DNA of 64,000 nucleotides, from contig NZ_CP100355.1 in the NCBI RefSeq assembly GCF_024204665.1, forward strand, positions 186,001 to 250,000, read 5' to 3'. This document shows, piece after piece, positions 1 through 12,543 of this stretch; the first letter of the stretch is position 1, and each line of letters starts with the position of its first letter. The notes under the pieces are model-generated. The model made no database searches and was not told the origin of the DNA. It worked only from the letters and a program-made list of their open reading frames with translations. The position numbers and the translations under genes were made by a program. The stretch is from Natronosalvus rutilus (GTDB lineage: Archaea > Halobacteriota > Halobacteria > Halobacteriales > Natrialbaceae).

Positions 1-851
1 CGCTTCCTCGTAAGTCACTCGCGCCGCCAGCGTTCTCCGCGCGCGAACTCCTCCCGCGGGTCGGCCTGGCCGTCTACGGCGTGATCGCCCTGTTCGTCTT
101 CGTCGCCCCCATCGCGAGCCTGCTCGTCCGGAGCGTCTCCACCCCCGGCGGCGAGTTCACCCTGGCTCACTACGGCTTCCTCCTCGAGCGCCAGGCGTCC
201 GCGGCGGCGTTCCAGGTGCGACCCTGGCCCGCCATCCGTAATTCCCTGCTGTTCGCCGCCGCGGCACTCGCCGTGTCCCTCCCGATGGGGGTCGTCGTCT
301 CGGTGCTGACGACGCGCCGGTACCGCGGGCGAAAACTCGTCGACGTGGTCGCCATGGCCCCGCTCGCCGTCTCCGGCATCGTCGTCGGCATCGGCCTGCT
401 CCGCGGTCCCGTTTTCGGGTTCGAGGTCTGGCACTATCGAATCACCGTCACGGGCGCGGTGGCCATCGTCGCCGCCCACGCCGTCGCCTGTTACCCGTTC
501 GTCGTCCGCACCGTCGCGCCGGGACTCGAGTCGATCGACCCCAGCTTGCTCGAGTCCGCTCGCGCGCTTGGAGCCTCTCGAACCAGGGCGCTGCTCGACG
601 TCGAGTTGCCCCTGGTTTGGCCCGGCGTAGTCGCGGGCGCGGCGTTCGCGGTGGCCATCTCGATGGGGGAGTTCTCCGCGACGGTGATCCTCGCGACGGG
701 TACCGACCAGTACACGATGCCGATTGCGATCGAACGATTCATCGGGCGCCGCCTCGGACCGGCGACCGCCATGGGTGTCGTCTTGCTCGTCGTCACCGCG
801 TTCAGTTTCGTCGTCATCGACCGCCTCGGGGGTGATCGCGTTGGCCTCTGA
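1..851 (+). CDS. ABC transporter permease (3' part; starts before window)
   Basis: Inner-membrane permease of a binding-protein-dependent importer. The reading frame is open from the window edge, so the N-terminal part is missing; the first ATG inside (base 81) lies in a membrane segment and is not the true start. About five membrane segments remain. The cytoplasmic EAA loop, which docks on the ATPase, is visible as ESARALGASRTRALLDVELP, followed by GEFSATVIL. The layout is that of the ThiP/FbpB family (thiamine or ferric iron uptake). It overlaps the ATPase gene by 20 bases, so the two are translationally coupled. The substrate cannot be told from this fragment. Confidence 0.85.
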   Translation, partial: LPRKSLAPPAFSARELLPRVGLAVYGVIALFVFVAPIASLLVRSVSTPGGEFTLAHYGFLLERQASAAAFQVRPWPAIRNSLLFAAAALAVSLPMGVVVSVLTTRRYRGRKLVDVVAMAPLAVSGIVVGIGLLRGPVFGFEVWHYRITVTGAVAIVAAHAVACYPFVVRTVAPGLESIDPSLLESARALGASRTRALLDVELPLVWPGVVAGAAFAVAISMGEFSATVILATGTDQYTMPIAIERFIGRRLGPATAMGVVLLVVTAFSFVVIDRLGGDRVGL

Positions 852-1977
852 GCGCAACGGACTCGAACGAGCGCAGGTGGCCGACCACCAGGCCGACGCG
901 GTCGACCCGGACGCTCCCGTCGCGCTCGAGCTCGACGGCGTCTCGAAAACGTACGGCGAAACGACGGCCGTCGACGACGTCTCGGTCCGCGTCCGCGAGG
1001 GCGAGTTCTTCACCCTCGTCGGCCCCTCGGGCTGTGGGAAGACCACCACGCTCCGGCTCGTCGCCGGGTTCGAAGCGCCGAGTGCGGGGACCGTCCGATT
1101 CCGCGGCGAGGACGTGACCGACGTCCCGCCCGAGGATCGCGACGTCGGCGTCGTCTTCCAGAACTACGCGTTGTTCCCGCACATGACCGTCGGCGAGAAC
1201 GTCGCCTACGGGCTCAACTTCGCCGAGCCGCCAGGGGACGTCTCGCGCGAGGAACGGGTTCAGGAGTTACTCGAGCTGGTCGACCTCGAGGGGATGGCCG
1301 ACCGCGACCCCAACGAACTTTCCGGCGGCCAGCAACAGCGCGTGTCCATCGCCCGCGCGCTGGCGCCCGGCCCGGACGTCCTCCTGCTCGACGAGCCGAT
1401 GAGCGCTCTCGACGCGCAACTCCGCGAGCGCCTCCGCGTCCAGGTGAAGGCGATCCAGCGGGAGCTAGCGATTACGACGGTGTACGTCACCCACGACCAG
1501 GAGGAGGCCCTCGCCATCTCCGACCGCGTGGCCGTGATGCGTGCGGGGGCGCCCGAGCAGATTGCCCCGCCGCGAACGATCTACCACCGGCCCGAGACGC
1601 GCTTCGTCGCTGAGTTCGTCGGGGACAACAACGTCTTCGAAGGCGAGGTCGTCGGCGTCGACGTCGACGGCTACAGGGGCGAGGCGCGGACTCGAGTCGA
1701 CGTCGCCGGAACCGAGTTCGACGTCGTGACTGGCCGGAACAACGTACCGAACCGAGGCGAGTCGCTGACCTTCTGTGTTCGACCCGAACACCTCACGCTC
1801 GAGGCGCCGGCCAACGTGATCGCAGGCACCGTCGAGAGTTCGGAGTTCCTCGGAGAGACGACGCGCGTCAACCTGGAGTGGCAGGGCCGGGACGTCGTGT
1901 TGCGAACGCGCGAGCCGCTCTCGGGCGAGGTTCGAGTCGGGTTCAGGCCGGGCGACGCCCACGTCGTCAGTCGGTGA
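832..1977 (+). CDS. ABC transporter ATP-binding protein (PotA/FbpC/ThiQ type)
   Basis: ATPase partner of the permease just upstream. Walker A GPSGCGKTT is at about residues 64-72, the Q-loop Gln near 110, the signature LSGGQQQR at 163-170, Walker B VLLLDE at 183-188 and the switch His near 221. After the nucleotide-binding domain comes a roughly 130-residue TOBE-like regulatory domain typical of PotA/FbpC/CysA ATPases. The start is taken as GTG 832 (a TTG at 841 is possible), because any earlier start would run deep into the permease. The last codon abuts the end of the convergent gene with no spacer. The substrate is likely thiamine, iron or a polyamine; the binding protein is outside the window. 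Confidence 0.9.
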   Translation: MIALASERNGLERAQVADHQADAVDPDAPVALELDGVSKTYGETTAVDDVSVRVREGEFFTLVGPSGCGKTTTLRLVAGFEAPSAGTVRFRGEDVTDVPPEDRDVGVVFQNYALFPHMTVGENVAYGLNFAEPPGDVSREERVQELLELVDLEGMADRDPNELSGGQQQRVSIARALAPGPDVLLLDEPMSALDAQLRERLRVQVKAIQRELAITTVYVTHDQEEALAISDRVAVMRAGAPEQIAPPRTIYHRPETRFVAEFVGDNNVFEGEVVGVDVDGYRGEARTRVDVAGTEFDVVTGRNNVPNRGESLTFCVRPEHLTLEAPANVIAGTVESSEFLGETTRVNLEWQGRDVVLRTREPLSGEVRVGFRPGDAHVVSR

Positions 1978-2730
1978 TCAGATCTCGTCCGTCGGAATCG
2001 GCGCGCGAGCCGTCACGAGGTCAGCGTTTCGCTCGAGGTCGTCCAGGGTGACGTCGGTCGGGCCGAAGAGAAACTCGAGGAAGCCACGAATCCGTTCGTC
2101 GTCGAGCCCTCGTCCTTCGGTCGTGAGCACTATCGCGACGGTCGCCGTCGACTGCTCCGGCGCGATCTCGTAACCGATGCCGAAGCCGCGCCACTCGTCG
2201 TTCGACGGCGTGAGCGAAATTTCGACGTACGTGTCCGTCGAAACCTTGTTGGACAGTCGTTTGAAGACCGAGTTCTTCTCGACGAGGCTGTCGGACCCCT
2301 CGCGCGCGTCGACGATGGACTCGAGGGTGAGACCGTCGACCGACGACCCGATCGTTCGGACGATCGCCTCGCCGTCGCGCACCGCGTGTTCCGTGCCGTG
2401 ATCGTCGACGATACGGTCGAACGCCCCGACGGACCCTTCGGTGGTGGCGTTCAGCCCGTCCGTTACGGTCGCGGCGTCGAACGAGCCGACGAGAATACGA
2501 TAGGGGTCGATCAATACGCGAGCGTCGACCTGGGACGCCTCGAGGACCGAAATCGTCTCGCCGACGGCGTCCTGGAGCGAGTATCCCTCGTCGTCGACGA
2601 GAGCCGCGGGGGCGTCGGCCGTGACGACCAGCTCGTAGTCGTCGGACGCGACCGCGTTCGGAACCCAGTTCAGAATCGATTGGAGGGACTCGTCGCGCTC
2701 GGACTCGTCGCTACGATCGGCCTCGAGCAT
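1978..2730 (-). CDS. Hypothetical haloarchaeal protein, 250 aa
   Basis: I do not recognise this family. The protein is acidic and soluble, with no membrane segment or Cys cluster. It looks like two alpha/beta repeats, with related phrases such as LDDLERNADLVTA and VSVLEAS. I start it at ATG 2730 because a clear TATAAA element (minus strand, 2791-2796) would put the transcript start near 2766. The frame stays open upstream to 2985 but then encodes no sensible N-terminus. It is convergent with the ABC ATPase, stop to stop with no gap. The next gene upstream (2988) is divergent. Confidence 0.7.
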   Translation of the reverse strand: MLEADRSDESERDESLQSILNWVPNAVASDDYELVVTADAPAALVDDEGYSLQDAVGETISVLEASQVDARVLIDPYRILVGSFDAATVTDGLNATTEGSVGAFDRIVDDHGTEHAVRDGEAIVRTIGSSVDGLTLESIVDAREGSDSLVEKNSVFKRLSNKVSTDTYVEISLTPSNDEWRGFGIGYEIAPEQSTATVAIVLTTEGRGLDDERIRGFLEFLFGPTDVTLDDLERNADLVTARAPIPTDEI

Positions 2731-2790
2731 CGTCGTACAACCGGCGCTCGAGGCGGAGAATCCGCGATTCCGGCGAGGTATCCGCGTCTC

Positions 2791-2796
2791 TTTATA
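2791..2796 (-). promoter_or_regulatory. TATA element for the 250-aa hypothetical gene
   Basis: TATAAA on the minus strand, in the otherwise GC-rich divergent region between this gene and the metallo-beta-lactamase gene. Its position predicts transcription from about 2766 and a leader of about 35 bases, which supports ATG 2730 as the start. Confidence 0.5.
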
Positions 2797-2987
2797 CGCA
2801 TCGCTACCCGTCGCAATATATCGGTCTTTTGGTGTCAATGAGTGGGATTGTTTGACGTCGCGTCGCCCGACGCACCCGGCTCGCCAGATAACGAGCGACG
2901 GTGTCGCGGCGTTCGGACCTTGGCGCGAACGCAGACCGGTTCGGGCGAGTGCCACAGATTCATCGTCCTCGAGTCGAAGGGACACGT

Positions 2988-3788
2988 ATGCCAGTCGAGC
3001 GACTCTACCGGCTGAACACGGCGACGTGGACCTTCGACAACAGCGCCGCGACCCAGCTCCAGGACCCCGGCGAACCCTACGTCGGCTGGTGTCCGTGCTA
3101 CCTGCTCGAGCACTCCGACGGACTCGCCCTGTTCGATACGGGCGTCAGTCACGAGATGGCGACGGCGCCGCTCGAGTACGGCCCGCGAGGGGCGCCGCAC
3201 ATGGCCGAGTTCGCCGAGACAATCGATCTCTCGGCGGGGAAGCCCCCGGTCGAGCACCTCGCGGACCTGGGTTACGAGCCAGGGGACGTAGACACGGTCG
3301 TTCTCTCACACCTCCACACCGACCACGCCGGCAACCTCGATTCGTTCCCCGAGGCGACCGTCGTCGTCCGGAAGGAGGAACTGCGCTACGCGTTCTGGCC
3401 CGACGGCCCCCAGCGACTGTTCTACCTCGAGGGCGACTTCCGCCACCTCCGGGAACTCGATGCCGACGTCGTCGCGATCACGGACGAGTACGACATCTTC
3501 GGCGACGGATCGGCCGTTGCCTTCCCGACACCAGGGCACACGCCGGGTCACCAGTCCCTCGAGGTGGACCTCGCCTCGGGGACGACGATCCTCGCGGCCG
3601 ACGCGGCGAACAGTCGCACGGGCTACGAGCAGGAACTGGCCGCCTCGTTCGCGTGGTCGCTCGAGGCGTCGGTCGACTCGATCGCCGCGATCAAGGATCG
3701 TGCCCGCGTCGCCGACGCGGACGTTATCGTCCACCACGATCCAGACGAACAGCGACGCCTGCCGGACCCGCCGAACGCGCTCGAGTGA
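2988..3788 (+). CDS. Metallo-beta-lactamase-fold hydrolase (AHL-lactonase-like)
   Basis: A 266-residue MBL-fold hydrolase. The metal motif HLHTDHAGN is near residue 105, a downstream His lies in TPGHTPGHQS, an Asp is in AADAANS, and a final His lies in VHHDP. This is the dinuclear-zinc arrangement of the N-acyl-homoserine lactonase (AiiA/AttM) branch, including the DTGVSHE loop near the N-terminus. The true substrate is unknown; in haloarchaea this group need not act on homoserine lactones. The start ATG 2988 is the first good Met, and the protein begins with the usual beta-strand. It is apparently monocistronic; the following 168 bases contain a TATA-like sequence for the next gene. Confidence 0.85.
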   Translation: MPVERLYRLNTATWTFDNSAATQLQDPGEPYVGWCPCYLLEHSDGLALFDTGVSHEMATAPLEYGPRGAPHMAEFAETIDLSAGKPPVEHLADLGYEPGDVDTVVLSHLHTDHAGNLDSFPEATVVVRKEELRYAFWPDGPQRLFYLEGDFRHLRELDADVVAITDEYDIFGDGSAVAFPTPGHTPGHQSLEVDLASGTTILAADAANSRTGYEQELAASFAWSLEASVDSIAAIKDRARVADADVIVHHDPDEQRRLPDPPNALE

Positions 3789-3833: not shown

Positions 3834-3956
3834 AGGTTGTCACACGCTACTATGGCCCATAGCACACCCGCCGCTCTGTAGACGACACCAACGAGTCGCA
3901 CCCTCGGTGACACCTCGGGCCGAAAAACGTCCTTCGTCGTACCGACTCCCTATATA

Positions 3957-4943
3957 ATGACCACACGGAACACAAATCTCACCGGCACGACCCACCTCGA
4001 GCGGATCGAGCGAACGGCCCTTCCCGCGTCCGTTTCGACCCTCCTCGAGACCTACGAGGAAACCGTCGACGAACGGGACCGTTTCCTCTGGAAGTGGCTC
4101 TACTACCTCTTTCCGGAGATTACCCTCTCGTGTGTCCGCCCCGACGACAGCCAGCAGGTCCGAGAGAGTAAGCTGCTGGCGTCGCTGTACGTCACCATCC
4201 TCGACGATCTCGCGGAACGCGACGAGGACGTACACACGTTTCGGGAAGCCGCGAAAGCGCCGTTCGACCACCGGGTGGCCGACGAGACGCGTCCGGAGGT
4301 CGACGCGGCGGCCGTCGCACTCGCCCACGAGGTCTGGGAGCACGTCGCTGACAGGCTCGAGTCGGCACCCCAGTACCCGGAATTTTGTGACCTCCTCCAG
4401 TTCGACCTCGACCGGACCACCACCGCCATCGAGTACACCTACCTGCTGAACCACCACCTCGAGCTGGCGTCCCTCGAGGAAACCGCCATTTACGACAGTC
4501 ACAACATGATGCTGTTCACCTACGCCGCCATCGACCTGCTATACTCGCCGGCGTTCGACCGTTCCGAACTCGGACAGCTGCGGGAGGTACTCAGACGCGC
4601 CCAGCAGATGACCCGCATCGGCAACTGGGTCACCACGTGGGAGCGCGAACTCGAGGAGGGAGACTGCAGTTCCGGCGTCGTCGTCTCCGCCGTGGAACGA
4701 GGCGTCGTTTCACGCGAGCAACTCGAGCGATTGCGGGCCAATCCCGCGACCGCCAATCGTGACGAGATCGTCGCGCGGATCCACGAGGCGAATATCGAAG
4801 ATCGATTACTCGAGCGGTGGTCGGAGCACTACGAGCACGTCGAGGGGGACGCCGCCGACATCGAGACCGTCGATATCGGAGCGCTTCTCGAGGGGCTCGA
4901 GACGGTGCTCGCGTGCCATCTGGAAAGCCGGGGGCGAAAATGA
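3957..4943 (+). CDS. Class I terpene synthase-like protein, 328 aa
   Basis: Length and motif layout match bacterial and fungal class I terpene cyclases. An aspartate-rich motif DDLAE (residues 83-87, DDxxE) follows a hydrophobic helix. The NSE-type motif is N223, T227, E231 within GNWVTTWERELEEGD, including the basic-Glu pair and trailing Gly-Asp seen after the cyclase motif. The 140-residue spacing equals that of sesquiterpene cyclases such as pentalenene synthase. The protein is mostly helical with no membrane anchor. The usual phosphate-sensing Arg about 46 residues before the NSE motif is not obvious. The C-terminal RWSEHY could stand for the Arg-Tyr pair. Expected role (inference): magnesium-dependent ionisation of a prenyl diphosphate. 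The next gene, 157 bases on, is a regulator. A non-catalytic relative is possible. Confidence 0.65.
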   Translation: MTTRNTNLTGTTHLERIERTALPASVSTLLETYEETVDERDRFLWKWLYYLFPEITLSCVRPDDSQQVRESKLLASLYVTILDDLAERDEDVHTFREAAKAPFDHRVADETRPEVDAAAVALAHEVWEHVADRLESAPQYPEFCDLLQFDLDRTTTAIEYTYLLNHHLELASLEETAIYDSHNMMLFTYAAIDLLYSPAFDRSELGQLREVLRRAQQMTRIGNWVTTWERELEEGDCSSGVVVSAVERGVVSREQLERLRANPATANRDEIVARIHEANIEDRLLERWSEHYEHVEGDAADIETVDIGALLEGLETVLACHLESRGRK

Positions 4944-5099: not shown

Positions 5100-5891
5100 G
5101 TGACTGACCGAGAACGAACCGATCAGGAACCCCGCTGGGATCGAGACTTCGTCCAGGAAGTGATGACCCGGTCCGAACTACTGGAACTGTTGGCCGACCG
5201 ACCGCGGACGGCCCGCGAACTGGCCGACCAACTCGAGATGGCCCGGTCGACCGTCCACCGGGCGGCCGATGCGCTCGAGGCGCACGGACTGGTCGAGAAA
5301 CCGGCCGACCGCTTCGAGAGCACCGGCCTCGGCGACGTCGTCGCCGACGAACTCCGCACGTTTCGAACGAACCTCGAGGCCGCGAGACGGATCGAGCCGT
5401 TCTTGAACACGATCGACGACTCGGCGCCGGAGCTCCCGATCGAGCACTTCACCGACGCGACCGTGACCTGTTCGGGCCACCGGCAGGCACACGTCGGCAT
5501 CAAGCGCATCACCGAGCTCATCGAGGCGACGGACTCCCTCCGGATGTTCTCGAGCATCATCTCGCCGCTCTACGTCGACGTGGCCCGACGGGAGATCCTG
5601 GATGGTATGGAAATCGAAGTGATCTTCGACCAGCAGGTCATCGAGATCATCCTCGAACAACACGTCGAGGAGGCAATGGAGGCGTTCGAAACCGGCCGGT
5701 TCGAGGTCTACGTCGCCGAAAACGTTCCTTTCGAACTCTTTCTCTTCGACGAGCGGGTGGGCCTTGCGGCCCACGACGAGTCGGGTATCGCCCGCGCGTT
5801 CGTCGAAACGACCGATGCCGGGGCGCGAACGTGGGCCGAATCGCTCTACGCGGAGTACGCGGCGGACACGGACGCGTTTCGAATGGAGTGA
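5100..5891 (+). CDS. Winged-helix transcriptional regulator with FilR1-type C-terminal domain
   Basis: A 263-residue archaeal regulator. Residues 20-80 form a winged helix (TARELADQLEMARSTVHRA is the helix-turn-helix). The remainder (about 95-260) matches the FilR1/DUF1724 ligand-sensing domain common in methanogens and haloarchaea: ITELIEATDSLRMFSSIISP, then IEVIFDQQVIEIIL and FELFLFDERVGLAA. The start is GTG 5100. It follows the terpene-synthase-like gene on the same strand after 156 bases, so it may be co-transcribed or may control it. The effector is unknown. Confidence 0.85.
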   Translation: MTDRERTDQEPRWDRDFVQEVMTRSELLELLADRPRTARELADQLEMARSTVHRAADALEAHGLVEKPADRFESTGLGDVVADELRTFRTNLEAARRIEPFLNTIDDSAPELPIEHFTDATVTCSGHRQAHVGIKRITELIEATDSLRMFSSIISPLYVDVARREILDGMEIEVIFDQQVIEIILEQHVEEAMEAFETGRFEVYVAENVPFELFLFDERVGLAAHDESGIARAFVETTDAGARTWAESLYAEYAADTDAFRME

Positions 5892-6219: not shown

Positions 6220-6510
6220 ATGACCAGTATGGACCCTAATCTCGATATCGTGGCACGGGACCCCTCCACGGACACGTATGAATTTCGACTCGACGACAAT
6301 CGCGAAACGACGGTGTCGATCGCCGAGGCCATGGCGACGATTCGAGGCTGTCCGTCGACCGATCTGCGACCACTTTACCACGACGTCGATCCAGCATTGC
6401 TCGAACGCGTCGGCTCCCGGTCGAGTCGACAGTCATTTCACTTCGTCAGCAACGGTTTCGACGTCACTGTCAGTGGCACCGGGACGGTTCGAATCGAGCG
6501 CCTGGACTGA
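6220..6510 (+). CDS. Stand-alone HalOD1 output-domain protein
   Basis: A 96-residue protein consisting of one HalOD1 domain, a haloarchaeal output module usually fused to receiver or PAS domains. Family landmarks are TVSIAEAMATIRGC, then DLRPLYHDVDPALLERV, and near the end FHFVSNGFDVTVSGTGTVRIE. There is no receiver, kinase or DNA-binding domain. The start could be ATG 6220 or the Met at 6229. It lies between two regulatory genes. A second stand-alone HalOD1 protein sits at 62524-62865. The biochemical function is not known. Confidence 0.8.
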   Translation: MTSMDPNLDIVARDPSTDTYEFRLDDNRETTVSIAEAMATIRGCPSTDLRPLYHDVDPALLERVGSRSSRQSFHFVSNGFDVTVSGTGTVRIERLD

Positions 6511-6786
6511 TCGTTCGAGCGGTCGGGCGGTCGAGAGGTAGAGCACTCGCGCGTCCGAACGCACAACGGGAAGCAAACAGATTCCCTCCGAGCTGCAACT
6601 GGCGTGCATAGCGCGACTCGTCGTTCACGAACAGCCTCCGGTTTCTGGCCGACGGGTCCGGGAGTCGTCGATCATTGGGTGCTCGAGGAACGTTCACGTG
6701 GTCCGAACGGTACGGAAAATCCGGTCAAAACACGTAGGAACCGAGATTATTCCCGTCACCACCCAACCCCAGCGTACGATCAGCAC

Positions 6787-7188
6787 ATGACGACGAACAT
6801 CCCATCACCAGCGCTATTCGAGCAGGCCGGCGAAGTTACCTCGACGTTCGACCTTCTGGCCGACCAGCGGCGCCGCGTGGTGGTACGATACCTCGAGGAA
6901 ACGACCGGCCCGGCGACCCTCGGGGAACTGGCCGAGGAAATCTCGGTTCGCGAATCGAGCGGTCGGTTGCACTCGATCTCCGACCACGCGGACGCCCAGC
7001 ACGACCACCTCCGGTCGATCACGATCTCGCTCCACCACGTACACATTCCCAAGCTCGCCGACGCGGACGCGATCGACTACGACCCGGAGACGAAGACGGC
7101 CCTCCTCACCGAAACCGGGGAACGCATCGCCGCTCGGATGGACGCAATCTGTGGCGAGCCACGGGATACCTACGACCGCTCGTCGTAG
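6787..7188 (+). CDS. Winged-helix protein, DUF7344-like
   Basis: A 133-residue protein that starts, like many haloarchaeal regulators, with a short leader and then FDLLADQRRRVVVRYLEE, a helix-turn-helix opening (ATLGELAEEI), and a wing ending with IDYDPETKTALLTETG. This is the pattern I associate with the DUF7344 family. Its middle part is His-rich (SDHADAQHDH, LHHVHIP), which could reflect metal binding but is not diagnostic. It ends 60 bases before the aldehyde ferredoxin oxidoreductase gene on the same strand and may regulate it (inference). Confidence 0.75.
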   Translation: MTTNIPSPALFEQAGEVTSTFDLLADQRRRVVVRYLEETTGPATLGELAEEISVRESSGRLHSISDHADAQHDHLRSITISLHHVHIPKLADADAIDYDPETKTALLTETGERIAARMDAICGEPRDTYDRSS

Positions 7189-7248
7189 CCTCCACGACCG
7201 AACTCGACAACCGGTACCGTTTTGCACGGCCGCGTGACACAGTGAGGT

Positions 7249-8934
7249 ATGAACCACGCCAGAGGACCGCTGCTCACGATCGACCTCGAGGACCGTTCGT
7301 GGGAGACCGAATCGATCGACGACGTACTCGAGCGCTACGTCGGCGGTCGCGCAGTCGGAACGAAACTCGCTCACGACCGGATTCCGTTCGACGCGGACCC
7401 GTTCGGTCACGAGAACCGCCTCTTCTTCGCGACGGGACCGCTCCAGCACTCGACGATGAGCTTCACCGGGCGAATGTCGGCGACCGGGCTCTCGCCGCTG
7501 ACCGACGGCCTGCTCTCCTCGAACGCCGGGGGTTTCCTCTCGCGGAACTTCACGGCGACGGGCTACGGCGCCGTCGAGGTCGCAGGCGAGAGCGACGACC
7601 TCGTGATCGTACACGTTACGGACGATAGCGTCGAATTCGAGGACGCGTCGGCGCTCGAGGGGGCAGAGACGAGCGAAATCTGTGACTACATCGAGGACGA
7701 ACACGGCCTCGCGGCCGAACACACCGTCACCATCGGCCCCGCGGGCGAGAACCAGGTTCGATTCGCCTCGATCATGACCTCCCGCGAGCGCGCGTTCGGC
7801 CGCGGCGGTCTCGGAGCCGTGCTCGGGTCGAAGAACGTCAAAGCGATCACCTTCGACGGGGACTCGACGCACGACGTCGAGATTCCACCCCTCCAGATGG
7901 ACGTCCACCGGGAGGCTGCCCAGTCCGACCACATCATGAAACGGCAGGGCACCTCCTCGATGACAGAGTTCGCCAGCACGGTCGAGGCCCTGCCGACGCG
8001 GTACTTTTCGGAACTGAGCTTCGAGGGCGCCGAGGGCATCAGCGGCGACCGCGTCGAAGAGAAGAAGTACAAGAAGGGGACCTGCTCGGCGTGTGCGTTC
8101 GCCTGCAAACTCCCAACCAGGGACGAGGAATCCGGCCTCGAGACCGAGGGCCCGGAGTACGAGACGGTGATGGCGTTCGGCTCGAACGCCGGCGTCGACG
8201 ACATCGTCGACGTGATGCAGTCGAACAAACTGTGCGACGAACTCGGGATGGACACCATCTCCGCGGGCGACGTCGTCTCGGCGTACCTCGCGAGCGAGGA
8301 CGCATTCGGCGACGCCGAGTTGATCCACGAAACCGTCGAGAAGATCGCCCATCGGGAGGGAATTGGCGACACGCTCGCCGAGGGCGTCGACCGCATCCAC
8401 GATGAACTGGGCGTCGACAACTGGTCAGTCAAGGGCCTCGAGTTCCCCGCCCACGACGGCCGCACGCTCAACGGTCAGGGGCTGTCCTTCGCCACCTCCA
8501 ACCGCGGCGCCGATCACATGTACGCCGAGTTCTACTCGCTAGAGTACCCGTTGGTCGACCAGGACCAGGCCATCGACAAGGAGGGGCTCGAGGGGAAACC
8601 CCCGAAGGTCGTCGAGAAGGAGAACCTGAACGTCATCAAGGACAGCGCGGTCCTGTGTAAGTTCTCCCGAGACTTCGTCGACGCCGACCGCCTCGAGACG
8701 CTCCTCGACGCGGACTACGACGACCTGCTCGCCGTCGGCGGCGAGGTCGTCGCGATGGAGCGCCACTTCAACAACCGGCGCGGCATGGACCGGGCGGACG
8801 ACCGACTGCCCTACGAACTTCCGGGATTCGACGACGCCCTCTCGGCGTACTACGCCGAGCGCGGCTGGAACGACGACGGCACCGTCCCGGCAGAAGCCGT
8901 CGGCGCAGGCGAGGCGGTCTCGAGCGACGACTGA
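7249..8934 (+). CDS. aor: Aldehyde ferredoxin oxidoreductase family protein
   Basis: A 561-residue tungsten (or molybdenum) bis-pyranopterin enzyme. It would oxidise aldehydes to carboxylic acids and pass electrons to ferredoxin in the cytoplasm. The N-terminal half has the cofactor phrases GRMSATGLSPLTDGL and GGLGAVLGSKNVKAI. The [4Fe-4S] ligands are C279, C282, C286 (CSACAFAC) and C470 (VLCKF). A second pterin loop is near CDELGMDTIS. Length is slightly short of the usual 600 residues but all domains are present. Start ATG 7249. A winged-helix gene lies just upstream on the same strand. Substrate unknown. Confidence 0.92.
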   Translation: MNHARGPLLTIDLEDRSWETESIDDVLERYVGGRAVGTKLAHDRIPFDADPFGHENRLFFATGPLQHSTMSFTGRMSATGLSPLTDGLLSSNAGGFLSRNFTATGYGAVEVAGESDDLVIVHVTDDSVEFEDASALEGAETSEICDYIEDEHGLAAEHTVTIGPAGENQVRFASIMTSRERAFGRGGLGAVLGSKNVKAITFDGDSTHDVEIPPLQMDVHREAAQSDHIMKRQGTSSMTEFASTVEALPTRYFSELSFEGAEGISGDRVEEKKYKKGTCSACAFACKLPTRDEESGLETEGPEYETVMAFGSNAGVDDIVDVMQSNKLCDELGMDTISAGDVVSAYLASEDAFGDAELIHETVEKIAHREGIGDTLAEGVDRIHDELGVDNWSVKGLEFPAHDGRTLNGQGLSFATSNRGADHMYAEFYSLEYPLVDQDQAIDKEGLEGKPPKVVEKENLNVIKDSAVLCKFSRDFVDADRLETLLDADYDDLLAVGGEVVAMERHFNNRRGMDRADDRLPYELPGFDDALSAYYAERGWNDDGTVPAEAVGAGEAVSSDD

Positions 8935-8945
8935 CGGGTTCAGCT

Positions 8946-9010: not shown

Positions 9011-10675
9011 TCACTGGTCGACGCCAGGTTCGAACGCCTCGAGCCGCCGTCTCGCGTATCGATAGCCGCCGAGCCCCGCGACGCCGCCGAAGACGCCACA
9101 GAGGCCCACCGTCGCCGCGACTCCCGCGAGCGAGTCGGCGACCCCCGTCCCGAACCCGACGAAGAGTGGGCTCGCGACGACGACCATCGCGGCGAGGTAC
9201 GCGAGCATGGCGTACAGTTCGGGCGGCGACAGGGAGGCAGGCGTCGGTCCCTCGAGGTTCGGGAGGTAGGCGCCGACGGCGAGCGAGAGGCCCGTCCCGC
9301 CGATGGTCACCAGCGTCGAGGCGGCCGCGAATCCGACGCTCGTCAGGGGCGGATAGCCGGCAGCGGCACCGACGAGGAGTGCAGCGGTAGCGACGACTGG
9401 CGTGCCCGGAACGAGCGCGGCGAGGGCGTGCCCGCGGAGGATGGCGTCCGGCCCGCCCGGCGTGGTCCGCACGAGCGCCAGGGCGACCCGTTCGTTCCCG
9501 AGGGGGTTGAGCGTCGTCCCGAGGCCGACGGCCGAGGCGGCGTACAGGACGACGAGCGGCGCGAGTAGGGCGGGCGCCGTCGTCGATACGTCGGCCGTCA
9601 CCGGACCCACGAACGCCAGCGGCAGGACGACGTAGAGCATCGCCCGTGGCGACCGGCGCATCCGACGCCACACCACCGCCGTCGCTCCCGCCGTCGCCCG
9701 GCCGAATCGCGCCTCGAGCACCCGCCCCACGAACCGCGTTCGCCGGCCGGGACGCGAGTCGGAGACGGTGCCGTCGTCGAGGACGGTCTCGGCGAACCAC
9801 AGCGAGCGGCCGGAGACGAGGGTCGTTCCTAGGGCGAGGGGGATCACGCAGGTGGCGACGAGCAGTGCAGCCCCGGCCTGGATGGCCCCCGCCTCGAGGC
9901 CGGGCGTGGTCGCGAGCGCGAGGTCGCCGTACCACCCCAGCGGCGTCGAGCCGAGCAGGCCGGCGGTCCGACGGCTGACGGCGAGCCCGACGAACGTGAC
10001 GAACAGGAGGAGGACGCTCACGGCGTAGCGGGCGCTGTAGAGTCGTGGGGATCGACGGATGGCGGCCCGGATGGCGACGCCAACGGCGGTTCCGGCCAGC
10101 AGGCCGGTCAGGAGGATGGCGCCGCCGCCGACGACTGCGCCGACGAACGTCGCGGGCGACCCCGTCCCAACCGTGAACGCCAGGACGGCTCCCAGGGTTG
10201 CCGGCGCGACGAACCAGCCGTGCTCAAGCAGGGCCGCCCCGAGGACACCGGTGATCGCCGACGGGAGCGGGACCGCGGTGACGGCCTCGGTCGGTGGGGT
10301 CTCCCAGCCGTCGCTCGTCGTCGCGCCGAGCGCGCCCAGGCCCGCCGTCAGAACGAGTCCCGTGGCCGCGAGTTCGCGCGTGCGCTCCAGAACGCGGTCG
10401 CTCTCGGTGCCGACGAGGGTGCCGTAATGGTAGGCGCCGGGTTCGGGCCAGACGGACTCGTAGACGGGGACCGGAACGGTGCCGACGAGCAACAGCGTCG
10501 CGAACGTCGCACCCAGGACGACCGCGGCCGCCAGTTGCGGGTGGCGACGACGGCGCCGGAGTTCGACGCGGTGGCGAACCGCCGCAATCTGCCCCGCGGC
10601 GCGAGCGGCGGCGAGGACGCGCTGACTCGAGGAGGTCACTGCTCGAGGTTGCACCGGGGGGTGGTTCACTCTCAC
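9011..10675 (-). CDS. Large polytopic membrane protein, function unknown
   Basis: About 554 residues with some twelve or more hydrophobic segments separated by short Arg-rich loops, for example AAIRRSPRLYSARYAVSVLLL and VWRRMRRSPRAML. The overall shape suggests an ABC-2-like exporter component or permease, but I see no diagnostic motif and no ATPase gene nearby. The start is probably GTG 10675 (or GTG 10669). The frame is open farther upstream, but a TATA element (minus strand, about 10718-10730) places transcription near 10698. It is convergent with the oxidoreductase gene, separated only by the 9-base repeat array. Confidence 0.65.
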   Translation of the reverse strand: MRVNHPPVQPRAVTSSSQRVLAAARAAGQIAAVRHRVELRRRRRHPQLAAAVVLGATFATLLLVGTVPVPVYESVWPEPGAYHYGTLVGTESDRVLERTRELAATGLVLTAGLGALGATTSDGWETPPTEAVTAVPLPSAITGVLGAALLEHGWFVAPATLGAVLAFTVGTGSPATFVGAVVGGGAILLTGLLAGTAVGVAIRAAIRRSPRLYSARYAVSVLLLFVTFVGLAVSRRTAGLLGSTPLGWYGDLALATTPGLEAGAIQAGAALLVATCVIPLALGTTLVSGRSLWFAETVLDDGTVSDSRPGRRTRFVGRVLEARFGRATAGATAVVWRRMRRSPRAMLYVVLPLAFVGPVTADVSTTAPALLAPLVVLYAASAVGLGTTLNPLGNERVALALVRTTPGGPDAILRGHALAALVPGTPVVATAALLVGAAAGYPPLTSVGFAAASTLVTIGGTGLSLAVGAYLPNLEGPTPASLSPPELYAMLAYLAAMVVVASPLFVGFGTGVADSLAGVAATVGLCGVFGGVAGLGGYRYARRRLEAFEPGVDQ

Positions 10676-10709
10676 GGTTTCGCATTTGGTGCGACCGGGG
10701 ATGTGAAAA

Positions 10710-10732
10710 TGGTATAGAAAATATAGTAATGA
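10710..10732. promoter_or_regulatory. AT-rich motif, promoter of the large membrane-protein gene; near-copy at 30679
   Basis: TGGTATAGAAAATATAGTAA lies upstream of the minus-strand membrane-protein gene. Read on the minus strand it contains ACTATATTTTC, a plausible TATA box. Twenty of 22 bases are the same at 30679-30700. Confidence 0.55.
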
Positions 10733-10861
10733 GTTGTGTCGAGGTGGGTGGGCTAGCTGGCGTGGCTCACCAGTTACTGGAGACGCCGTGCTCGTCACTC
10801 GACCTGACATCGGTGGTCCCGTCAGTCCGTGCCGGCCGAGTGTCCCGGGGACGTTCGGCGC

Positions 10862-11257
10862 TCACTCGCGGTCGCCGTCGTCAGTCCCGGGGTCCTCGAG
10901 GTCCTCGAGCGGAACGGGGTCGTTCCACTCGTTTGCGGGTTCGTCGCCGTCGTCTCCGCCCTCACCCGCGCCTTCGTCGTTCCCCGACCGAACCGTCCAG
11001 GGCACTTCGTCGGCCCGCGAGGGATGGACGTTGACGGCGCCGCCACGGTAGGGATCCGTCTCGGGGTCGTAGTCCAGTTCGCTCCGAGCGAGCAGGTAGA
11101 CGATCGCGCCGTAGACCGGCACCGCGAACACGATCACGGCCCACTTCCGCGGGTTGGACATCCCCACCTCGCGGGCGTCGCGGTAGACGTACGCGGCGAG
11201 GCCGGCGAAGAACGCCAGCGAGGCGAGAGCGAGCGCGGCGAGCGCCAGCGGATCCAT
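10862..11257 (-). CDS. Small membrane protein with acidic tail
   Basis: 131 residues. Two hydrophobic segments (about 5-22 and 38-56) flank a short polar loop YRDAREVGMSNPRKWA, a layout resembling the PLDc_N-type two-helix domain. An acidic C-terminal half with no fold signature follows (GEGGDDGDEPANEW). I start at ATG 11257, because the eight upstream codons add only polar residues before the first helix. It is the next gene on the minus strand after the reductase-like flavoprotein (47 bases), so it may share that transcript. Function unknown. Confidence 0.7.
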   Translation of the reverse strand: MDPLALAALALASLAFFAGLAAYVYRDAREVGMSNPRKWAVIVFAVPVYGAIVYLLARSELDYDPETDPYRGGAVNVHPSRADEVPWTVRSGNDEGAGEGGDDGDEPANEWNDPVPLEDLEDPGTDDGDRE

Positions 11258-11304
11258 GTCGGTCGTTGGCGCTCGAGGCATCTAAACCGATTGCCTCCCG
11301 ATAC

Positions 11305-12543
11305 CTAGTTGTACCAGTCCCGCCGAGCCCGAAGCACGCGGGCGATCAGCGGCAGATCCCGAACGCCGAGCAGTTTCGCGAGCGCGAGTCGGCTCCCTTT
11401 GTTGGCCTGGGCCAGCGTATCGGTGTCGAAGCGGTTCAGGTCCGCCATGAGGTCGTCGTAGCGGTCGTTCGAGGCGAGGTAGAGCAGGTGCGTCATCAGG
11501 AGCCGCGTGTCCACGTTCGGGGCGACATCGCGGTGCCAGAGCGTGTCGTAGACCGCGAGGTTGTCGGCGGTGGGCTCGATCTGGCCGTGTTTGAGACAGC
11601 TGTCGGCGGCGACGGCGGCCGCCCGACCGGACTTCATGCAGGTGTGAATCCCCTCGCCCCAGAGTGGGTCGACGGTCGGGACGGTGTCGCCGATGGCCAT
11701 GAACCGGTCGGTGTGGATCTGGCCCGGCGGCTGGATGTGGGCCGATCCGCGGTGCTGACGGCCCTCGATTCGCTCGGCGTTCGCGAAGCGGGGGTCGGTG
11801 TCGATCCAGTGCTGGAGGTAGTCGTCGATGTTGAAGTTGTCCCGGCCGTGCTGGTGGTGGCTCTCGTTCTGGATGTAACAGACGCCCACCTTCGCGGTGT
11901 CCGCGCCGGTGTGAAAGATCCAGGAGTAGCCTCCGGGGGCGATGTCGTGGTCGAGGCGCAACATCATCGCGTCGGTCAGGTCGGCGTAGCCAGGATGGTC
12001 GACCTCGATTCCCTCGAGTTCGAACTCGATCCCGATGGCGTGGTTCTCCCGCTTGAGGTCGCTCACACCGAGTTTCTTCGCCAGCGGCGCCGCGGGCCCC
12101 GTCGCGTCGATCACGATGTCGGCGTAGAGTTCCTCGGACCCGCTGTAGGTGACGCCGACGGGTTCGCCGCCCTCCGTAATCGGTGCCGTCGCTCTCGAGT
12201 CGAAGCGGTACTCCGCACCATTCTCGCGGCCGTCCTCGACCAGGAACCGCTTGAACTTCCCGAAGTCCAGCACCGCGCCCGGCTGATCCTGTACGTAGTA
12301 GTCGTTCGGCGACTCGAGCACCACGGATTCGGTGAACTGCTGGACGACGTCGTCGGGGATCCCGAACGAGGCCATCATCGACGGGAACGTGCCGGCCGTC
12401 GACTTGTTGCTCTGTTTCGGGAACTCGTCTTCCGCCTCCGTCTCGAGGACGACGACGTCGTACCCGCGGGTGGCCAGATCCCGCGCACACTGCGCACCAG
12501 CAGGCCCAGCCCCGGCGATCACTACGTCGCAATCTCCGTTCAT
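11305..12543 (-). CDS. Geranylgeranyl reductase-family FAD oxidoreductase
   Basis: A 412-residue flavoprotein of the geranylgeranyl reductase / digeranylgeranylglycerophospholipid reductase family, which saturates isoprenoid double bonds in archaeal lipids or carotenoid and quinone side chains. The FAD-binding GAGPAGAQCARDL is near residue 10, an acidic partner ends VVVLETEAE, and the second FAD motif is IGDTVPTVDPLWGEGI near 280. The start ATG 12543 is chosen over an upstream in-frame Met because it places VVIAGAGPAG at the usual distance. It is divergent from the CBS gene. The exact substrate is not readable; haloarchaea carry several paralogues. Confidence 0.85.
   Translation of the reverse strand: MNGDCDVVIAGAGPAGAQCARDLATRGYDVVVLETEAEDEFPKQSNKSTAGTFPSMMASFGIPDDVVQQFTESVVLESPNDYYVQDQPGAVLDFGKFKRFLVEDGRENGAEYRFDSRATAPITEGGEPVGVTYSGSEELYADIVIDATGPAAPLAKKLGVSDLKRENHAIGIEFELEGIEVDHPGYADLTDAMMLRLDHDIAPGGYSWIFHTGADTAKVGVCYIQNESHHQHGRDNFNIDDYLQHWIDTDPRFANAERIEGRQHRGSAHIQPPGQIHTDRFMAIGDTVPTVDPLWGEGIHTCMKSGRAAAVAADSCLKHGQIEPTADNLAVYDTLWHRDVAPNVDTRLLMTHLLYLASNDRYDDLMADLNRFDTDTLAQANKGSRLALAKLLGVRDLPLIARVLRARRDWYN

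Follow-up and report, generated by a model that had tools for sequence, protein, structure and literature searches.

The locus considered here raises the question of whether a haloarchaeon encodes a class I terpene synthase; terpene synthases turn linear isoprenoids into cyclic hydrocarbons. Within the window, i.e., the 64,000-nucleotide stretch of the Natronosalvus rutilus genome that was analysed, the open reading frame at 3957–4943 on the forward strand encodes a protein of exactly 328 amino acids, with a DDLAE sequence and, 140 residues on from D83, N223, T227 and E231 within R220-I-G-N-W-V-T-T-W-E-R-E231-L-E-E-G-D236 (nucleotides 4614–4664). These coordinates, residues (DDLAE at 83–87, N223/T227/E231), spacing and length, which the initial annotation had given in proposing a class I sesquiterpene cyclase, are all correct on re-reading of the sequence. 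The ATG at 3957 is the sole common start (ATG/GTG/TTG) upstream of the invariant R40 and is shared with two congeners. Directly 5′ of it, at 3951–3957, lies a TATATAA sequence, which is too near to be the usual archaeal TATA box of that start.

Table 1. Features of the synthase locus in window coordinates
Feature	Position	Strand	Evidence or remark
Metallo-β-lactamase-fold hydrolase, AHL-lactonase-like	2988..3788 (longer start 2901)	+	PF00753, E = 1.9e-21; 168 bp upstream of the synthase, same strand
Class I terpene synthase-like enzyme, 328 aa	3957..4943	+	PF19086, phmmer to Sat1646, AlphaFold2, Foldseek, 97 homologues
DDLAE, predicted first metal-binding motif, D83–E87	4203..4217	+	Sequence, conservation, Sat1646 alignment; C-terminal end of helix 62–88
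R220, probable pyrophosphate-sensor Arg, helix H	4614..4616	+	Arg in 90/97 homologues; position as in Sat1646/Stt4548
NWVTTWERE, predicted NSE-type second metal-binding motif (N223, T227, R230, E231)	4623..4649	+	Conservation; near C-terminal end of helix 202–233
FilR1-type transcriptional regulator, downstream	5100..5891 (start may be 5163)	+	PF08350, E = 6.5e-33; PF25213, E = 5e-19
DUF7344 HTH-like protein, relation uncertain	6787..7188	+	PF24035, E = 1.8e-21

The motif pair DDxx[DE]-110..170-Nxxx[ST]xxxE occurs in 3 of 510 unrelated open reading frames of 220–500 amino acids and in 81 of 20,000 shuffles of the window protein (0.4%). With a chance rate of about 0.5% and a window that holds some tens of genes, the pair is therefore only suggestive when met in one sequence. 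Judged from the sequences, its recurrence across the family is not due to chance, and since the pair taken alone is weak evidence, the case for a terpene synthase is decided by conservation and fold.

Conservation was counted over 97 different full-length homologues. D84, E/D87, N223, E231 and D236 are present in all of them, as is a Thr or Ser at position 227 (Thr in 95, Ser in 2), while D83 is found in 93 (Asn in 4) and R230 in 96. The DDxx(D/E) metal-binding motif of class I terpene synthases is thus present in the window protein as DDLAE. The second position of the NSE motif is Trp (91/97) rather than Asp, so that the family retains the metal ligands of (N,D)Dxx(S,T)xxx(E,D) but departs from the consensus in its strict form. 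It lacks the C-terminal Arg-Tyr pair, R325 (56/97) being followed by Gly with no Tyr; this pair is common but not universal in class I synthases, and its absence was treated as a subfamily trait rather than a defining one. In one clade (L076, L077, L079 and L080) Asn replaces the first Asp (NDLSD) and all other metal ligands are kept; three of these four synthases adjoin glutaredoxin-like and corrinoid-adenosyltransferase-like genes, the latter named by reading, and the function of this clade may differ.

The two comparisons suggested with the initial annotation, a search against the Pfam terpene synthase family PF19086 and a structure prediction, both bear the class I assignment out. PF19086 matches residues 78–252 of the window protein weakly (E = 1.1e-4, 22.5 bits against a cut-off of 23.7), or with 23.8 bits if every stretch of the open frame is included, and does better in the relatives: when 70 diverse members were scanned singly, 42 matched at E ≤ 0.01 (best 3.1e-7) and many scored above the cut-off. 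No other Pfam family recurs among these 70, and neither they nor the window protein match PF00494 (squalene/phytoene synthase). No NCBIfam model matches the window protein, nor does NCBIfam give a useful match for the family. Against the Protein Data Bank, phmmer returned a single significant sequence, Sat1646 (E = 1e-4); a profile of 14 rows found no match there, and a further profile search recovered Sat1646 weakly (E = 0.041).

AlphaFold2 predicts an all-helical chain, with a pLDDT of 88.9 and pTM of 0.88 when 14 relatives were supplied and 94.6 and 0.92 with 70. In the model, helix 62–88 carries DDLAE at its end and helix 202–233 the NSE motif near its end, i.e., both at or near C-terminal helix ends in the class I arrangement and aligned with the Mg ligands of Sat1646. 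Foldseek comparison with solved structures gave a probability of 1.00 to class I isoprenoid synthases throughout the matches listed, with moderate TM-scores of 0.5–0.67. The top ranks for the 70-relative model include VenA, hydropyrene synthase, Sat1646 and a Streptomyces type I diterpene synthase, as well as pentalenene, 10-epi-cubebol, avermitilol and T-muurolol synthases, so that the predicted fold resembles those of cyclases such as pentalenene synthase; farnesyl and geranylgeranyl diphosphate synthases are intermixed in the list and rank about equally. The open reading frame thus very probably encodes a terpene synthase.

Among the closest known enzymes are two class I diterpene synthases from actinobacteria, Sat1646 and Stt4548 (7e4n/7e4o and 7e4m in the PDB), which share with the window protein the fold, an Asp/Glu-rich motif and the N-(S/T)-R-(D/E) metal ligands. 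In Sat1646 the Mg ligands are D88 and D92 (EDWQVD) together with N223, D224, S227, R230 and D231, the NDLASYERD stretch at 223–231 binding Mg-B, and in both enzymes helix H bears the sensor, which precedes the NSE Asn by three residues (Arg220/Asn223 and Arg236/Asn239) (PMC9814573). In the HMMER alignment, D83, E87, R220, N223, T227, R230 and E231 of the window protein fall in register with these ligands and the sensor. The remark in the initial annotation that the usual sensor Arg is not obvious holds for helix G, but the residue need not be missing: R220, which is replaced by Met in the Methanosarcina-type group and by Gln in two bacteria, is by its position probably the pyrophosphate sensor. 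Sat1646 and Stt4548 nevertheless differ from the window protein, with identity of only about 18% and, in Sat1646, NDxxS against NWxxT here.

The family also stands apart from better-known PF19086 enzymes. With the bacterial members, e.g., pentalenene synthase, it shares DDxx(D/E), NSE and a single α domain, but many of its scores lie at or under the cut-off, and it has no helix-G sensor Arg, no RY pair and a Trp in the NSE motif. A second, canonical synthase type is present in two haloarchaea (G183 and G231; L141–L143). These proteins likewise carry class I motifs in an archaeal setting, but they are 470–480 amino acids long, bear an N-terminal SRPBCC-like domain and score 149–167 bits against PF19086 (three scanned). 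They were not recovered by the profile of the window protein's family, and in a profile–profile comparison both motifs came into register with a score that is not significant (E = 0.066). By most defining features, then, the window protein belongs to a divergent archaeal subfamily of class I terpene synthases at the edge of PF19086. Of the original claim, what PF19086, fold and conservation support is that an archaeon encodes an enzyme of the class I terpene synthase type that falls outside the families already well annotated.

The canonical genes have surroundings of their own. At L141 two divergent synthases with the SRPBCC-like (Polyketide_cyc2) domain are each followed by a polyprenyl synthase (7503–8945 −, 9630–11048 +, 11033–12004 + and 6308–7549 −), with a prenylcysteine-lyase-like FAD oxidase nearby (1691–3034), and the locus has the appearance of a complete archaeal gene cluster for a terpene. 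G231 has two more such proteins (L142, 1959–3389 +; L143, 495–1889 −), and the small contig of L143 also bears a cytochrome P450 (3533–4672).

We propose the following mechanism. D83 and E87, together with N223, T227, (R230) and E231, would bind three Mg ions, and these would hold the substrate, a linear prenyl diphosphate, by its diphosphate group, which R220 would sense. Ionisation would then yield an allylic cation that cyclises, or is quenched unrearranged, and is released as a terpene hydrocarbon or alcohol; sensors or regulators encoded nearby would probably switch the gene on. We put the probability of this reading, in which the protein is a class I terpene synthase with a single domain, belongs to a family centred on the Halobacteriota and has the proposed Mg/diphosphate chemistry and regulation, at about 0.85. 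Alternatively, the protein could be a class I synthase that closes no ring and quenches the ionised substrate to give a prenol or acyclic olefin: the motifs point to ionisation and not to ring closure, and several class I synthases yield acyclic products. This is nonetheless unlikely, as most class I synthases of such fold and size cyclise and the sequence offers nothing that speaks for acyclic products.

The designation as a sesquiterpene enzyme is not supported: the only significant sequence match, Sat1646, is a diterpene synthase, and no sequence feature of the window protein decides chain length. The class II cyclase family PF13249 was found in none of 15 carrier genomes and not among the neighbours of the synthase genes. 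The substrate is therefore probably a linear diphosphate, and direct cyclisation of geranylgeranyl diphosphate (GGPP) is likeliest, with farnesyl or C25 diphosphate as alternatives. GGPP is favoured solely because it is the main, abundant archaeal precursor. Elsewhere the N. rutilus genome encodes three ordinary PF00348 prenyl diphosphate synthases, so the precursors exist, and two squalene/phytoene synthases. A class I enzyme working on copalyl diphosphate that a partner class II cyclase supplies is suggested by Sat1646, the sole significant solved sequence relative, which like Stt4548 works in this way (PMC9814573), but no such partner was found in the archaea tested and, while a very divergent class II enzyme could escape the search, we consider this route highly improbable. 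That the protein is instead a trans-prenyl diphosphate synthase of the GGPPS/FPPS type, elongating with IPP, fits the shared superfold, the shared first Asp-rich motif and the presence of such enzymes among the best Foldseek matches, but is very hard to reconcile with an invariant NSE-type motif in place of the second DDxxD and with the lack of any PF00348 match in the window protein or the 70 members, in a genome that has ordinary PF00348 enzymes.

The initial annotation had called this gene the best candidate in the window for an undescribed pathway, but no obvious dedicated pathway surrounds it, its neighbours being a hydrolase and a FilR1-type regulator, with no P450 or other tailoring enzyme beside it in the window. 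The hydrolase scores 147 bits against NF045700, whose cut-off is 390, and is assigned to the synthase system only by inference; the FilR1-type gene is a candidate local regulator. The order hydrolase–synthase–FilR1 is kept in three congeners, which could be plain synteny. Further downstream, at 7249–8934 (+), a 561-amino-acid protein reads like an aldehyde ferredoxin oxidoreductase and is also kept downstream of the synthase in congeners. In loci of the organism's taxonomic family outside its genus (L062, L065–L070, L082, L084, L096, L099 and L107), the synthase occupies a stable position on the chromosome, close to rpl21e, ksgA and an RNA polymerase Rpb4-like gene, with a divergent metallo-β-lactamase-fold gene.

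A wider pattern emerged from 71 loci filtered at 75% identity, in which sensors and regulators are the most frequent neighbours of the family. A gene of a PAS-kinase, Bat-like, HalOD1, FilR1 or DUF7344 cluster lies no more than two genes from the synthase in 35 of the 71, against 3 of the 52 loci with enough flank when positions five to six genes away serve as control (Fisher p = 1e-7, an optimistic value because the loci share ancestry). A FilR1 cluster is found within two genes in 12 of the 71 loci, DUF7344 proteins adjoin the synthase in six other loci, and in Methanosarcina-type loci a PAS histidine kinase adjoins it directly. Pfam scans gave the same picture: the immediate neighbours on one side (n = 69) include 14 PAS_9, 13 Lactamase_B, 7 HTH_10/BAT, 7 HATPase_c, 4 HalOD1, 4 DUF7344 and 3 FilR1, and those on the other (n = 70) 8 FilR1, 7 HATPase_c and 6 PAS_9, compared with 2 PAS_4 and 2 Lactamase_B among controls five genes away (n = 112).

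This strong association with sensor and regulator genes, together with the clade in which Asn stands for D83, could be read as a sign that the fold has been kept and catalysis lost, so that the protein would now sense or bind isoprenoids on behalf of the regulators encoded next to it. Without catalysis, some of the metal ligands should have disappeared; these are all kept in the window protein and nearly all relatives, which leaves very little room for such a role. For a catalytically active synthase, it is conceivable, if rather doubtful, that the product is a terpenoid signal in archaea, light-, oxygen- or redox-linked or passed from cell to cell, with the neighbouring PAS/GAF sensors and HTH regulators either controlling its synthesis or reading it.

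Five loci (L013, L061, L074, L088 and L098), one of them bacterial, have a cytochrome P450 gene at a distance of one to three genes from the synthase; with about one to seven P450 matches per carrier genome, chance would be expected to give well under one such locus. At L061 (G203) the P450 is two genes from the synthase and another lies about 9 kb from it in the same genome, a possible terpenoid oxidation locus.

By profile search, the family is present in 120 of 391 Halobacteria genomes (about 31%) and 39 of 86 genera, several haloarchaea having two or three copies, and also in several further Halobacteriota families, including Methanosarcina-type archaea. Distant members occur in one Planctomycetota and one Chloroflexota MAG. 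In a maximum-likelihood tree the window protein groups with three congeners (100/98), joined next by two proteins from a different archaeal family (98/93), and the Methanosarcina-type and bacterial members sit on long branches. The Halobacterium bop-linked protein blp, encoded beside bat, was considered as a member and rejected by profile and six-frame searches: the 70-member profile gave no match at E ≤ 1 in any brp-bearing genome among 26 genomes of that archaeal family, and no member was found in six frames of the bop/brp/bat loci (L144–L148).

In the public records checked the family is labelled only "hypothetical protein", as it is on six haloarchaeal plasmids that carry the gene. Our search of the literature, which covered an open-access library, turned up no described archaeal class I terpene synthase and none with a known product. 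Clusters called "terpene" by antiSMASH have reportedly been noted in Halomicroarcula and may well be carotenoid genes. If the assignment is true, it would add terpenoid natural products to the chemistry of archaea, across about 31% of the sampled Halobacteria and in Methanosarcina-type archaea, and would provide a source of salt-adapted cyclases. The conserved link with sensor genes offers a direct lead to the biological role of these synthases.
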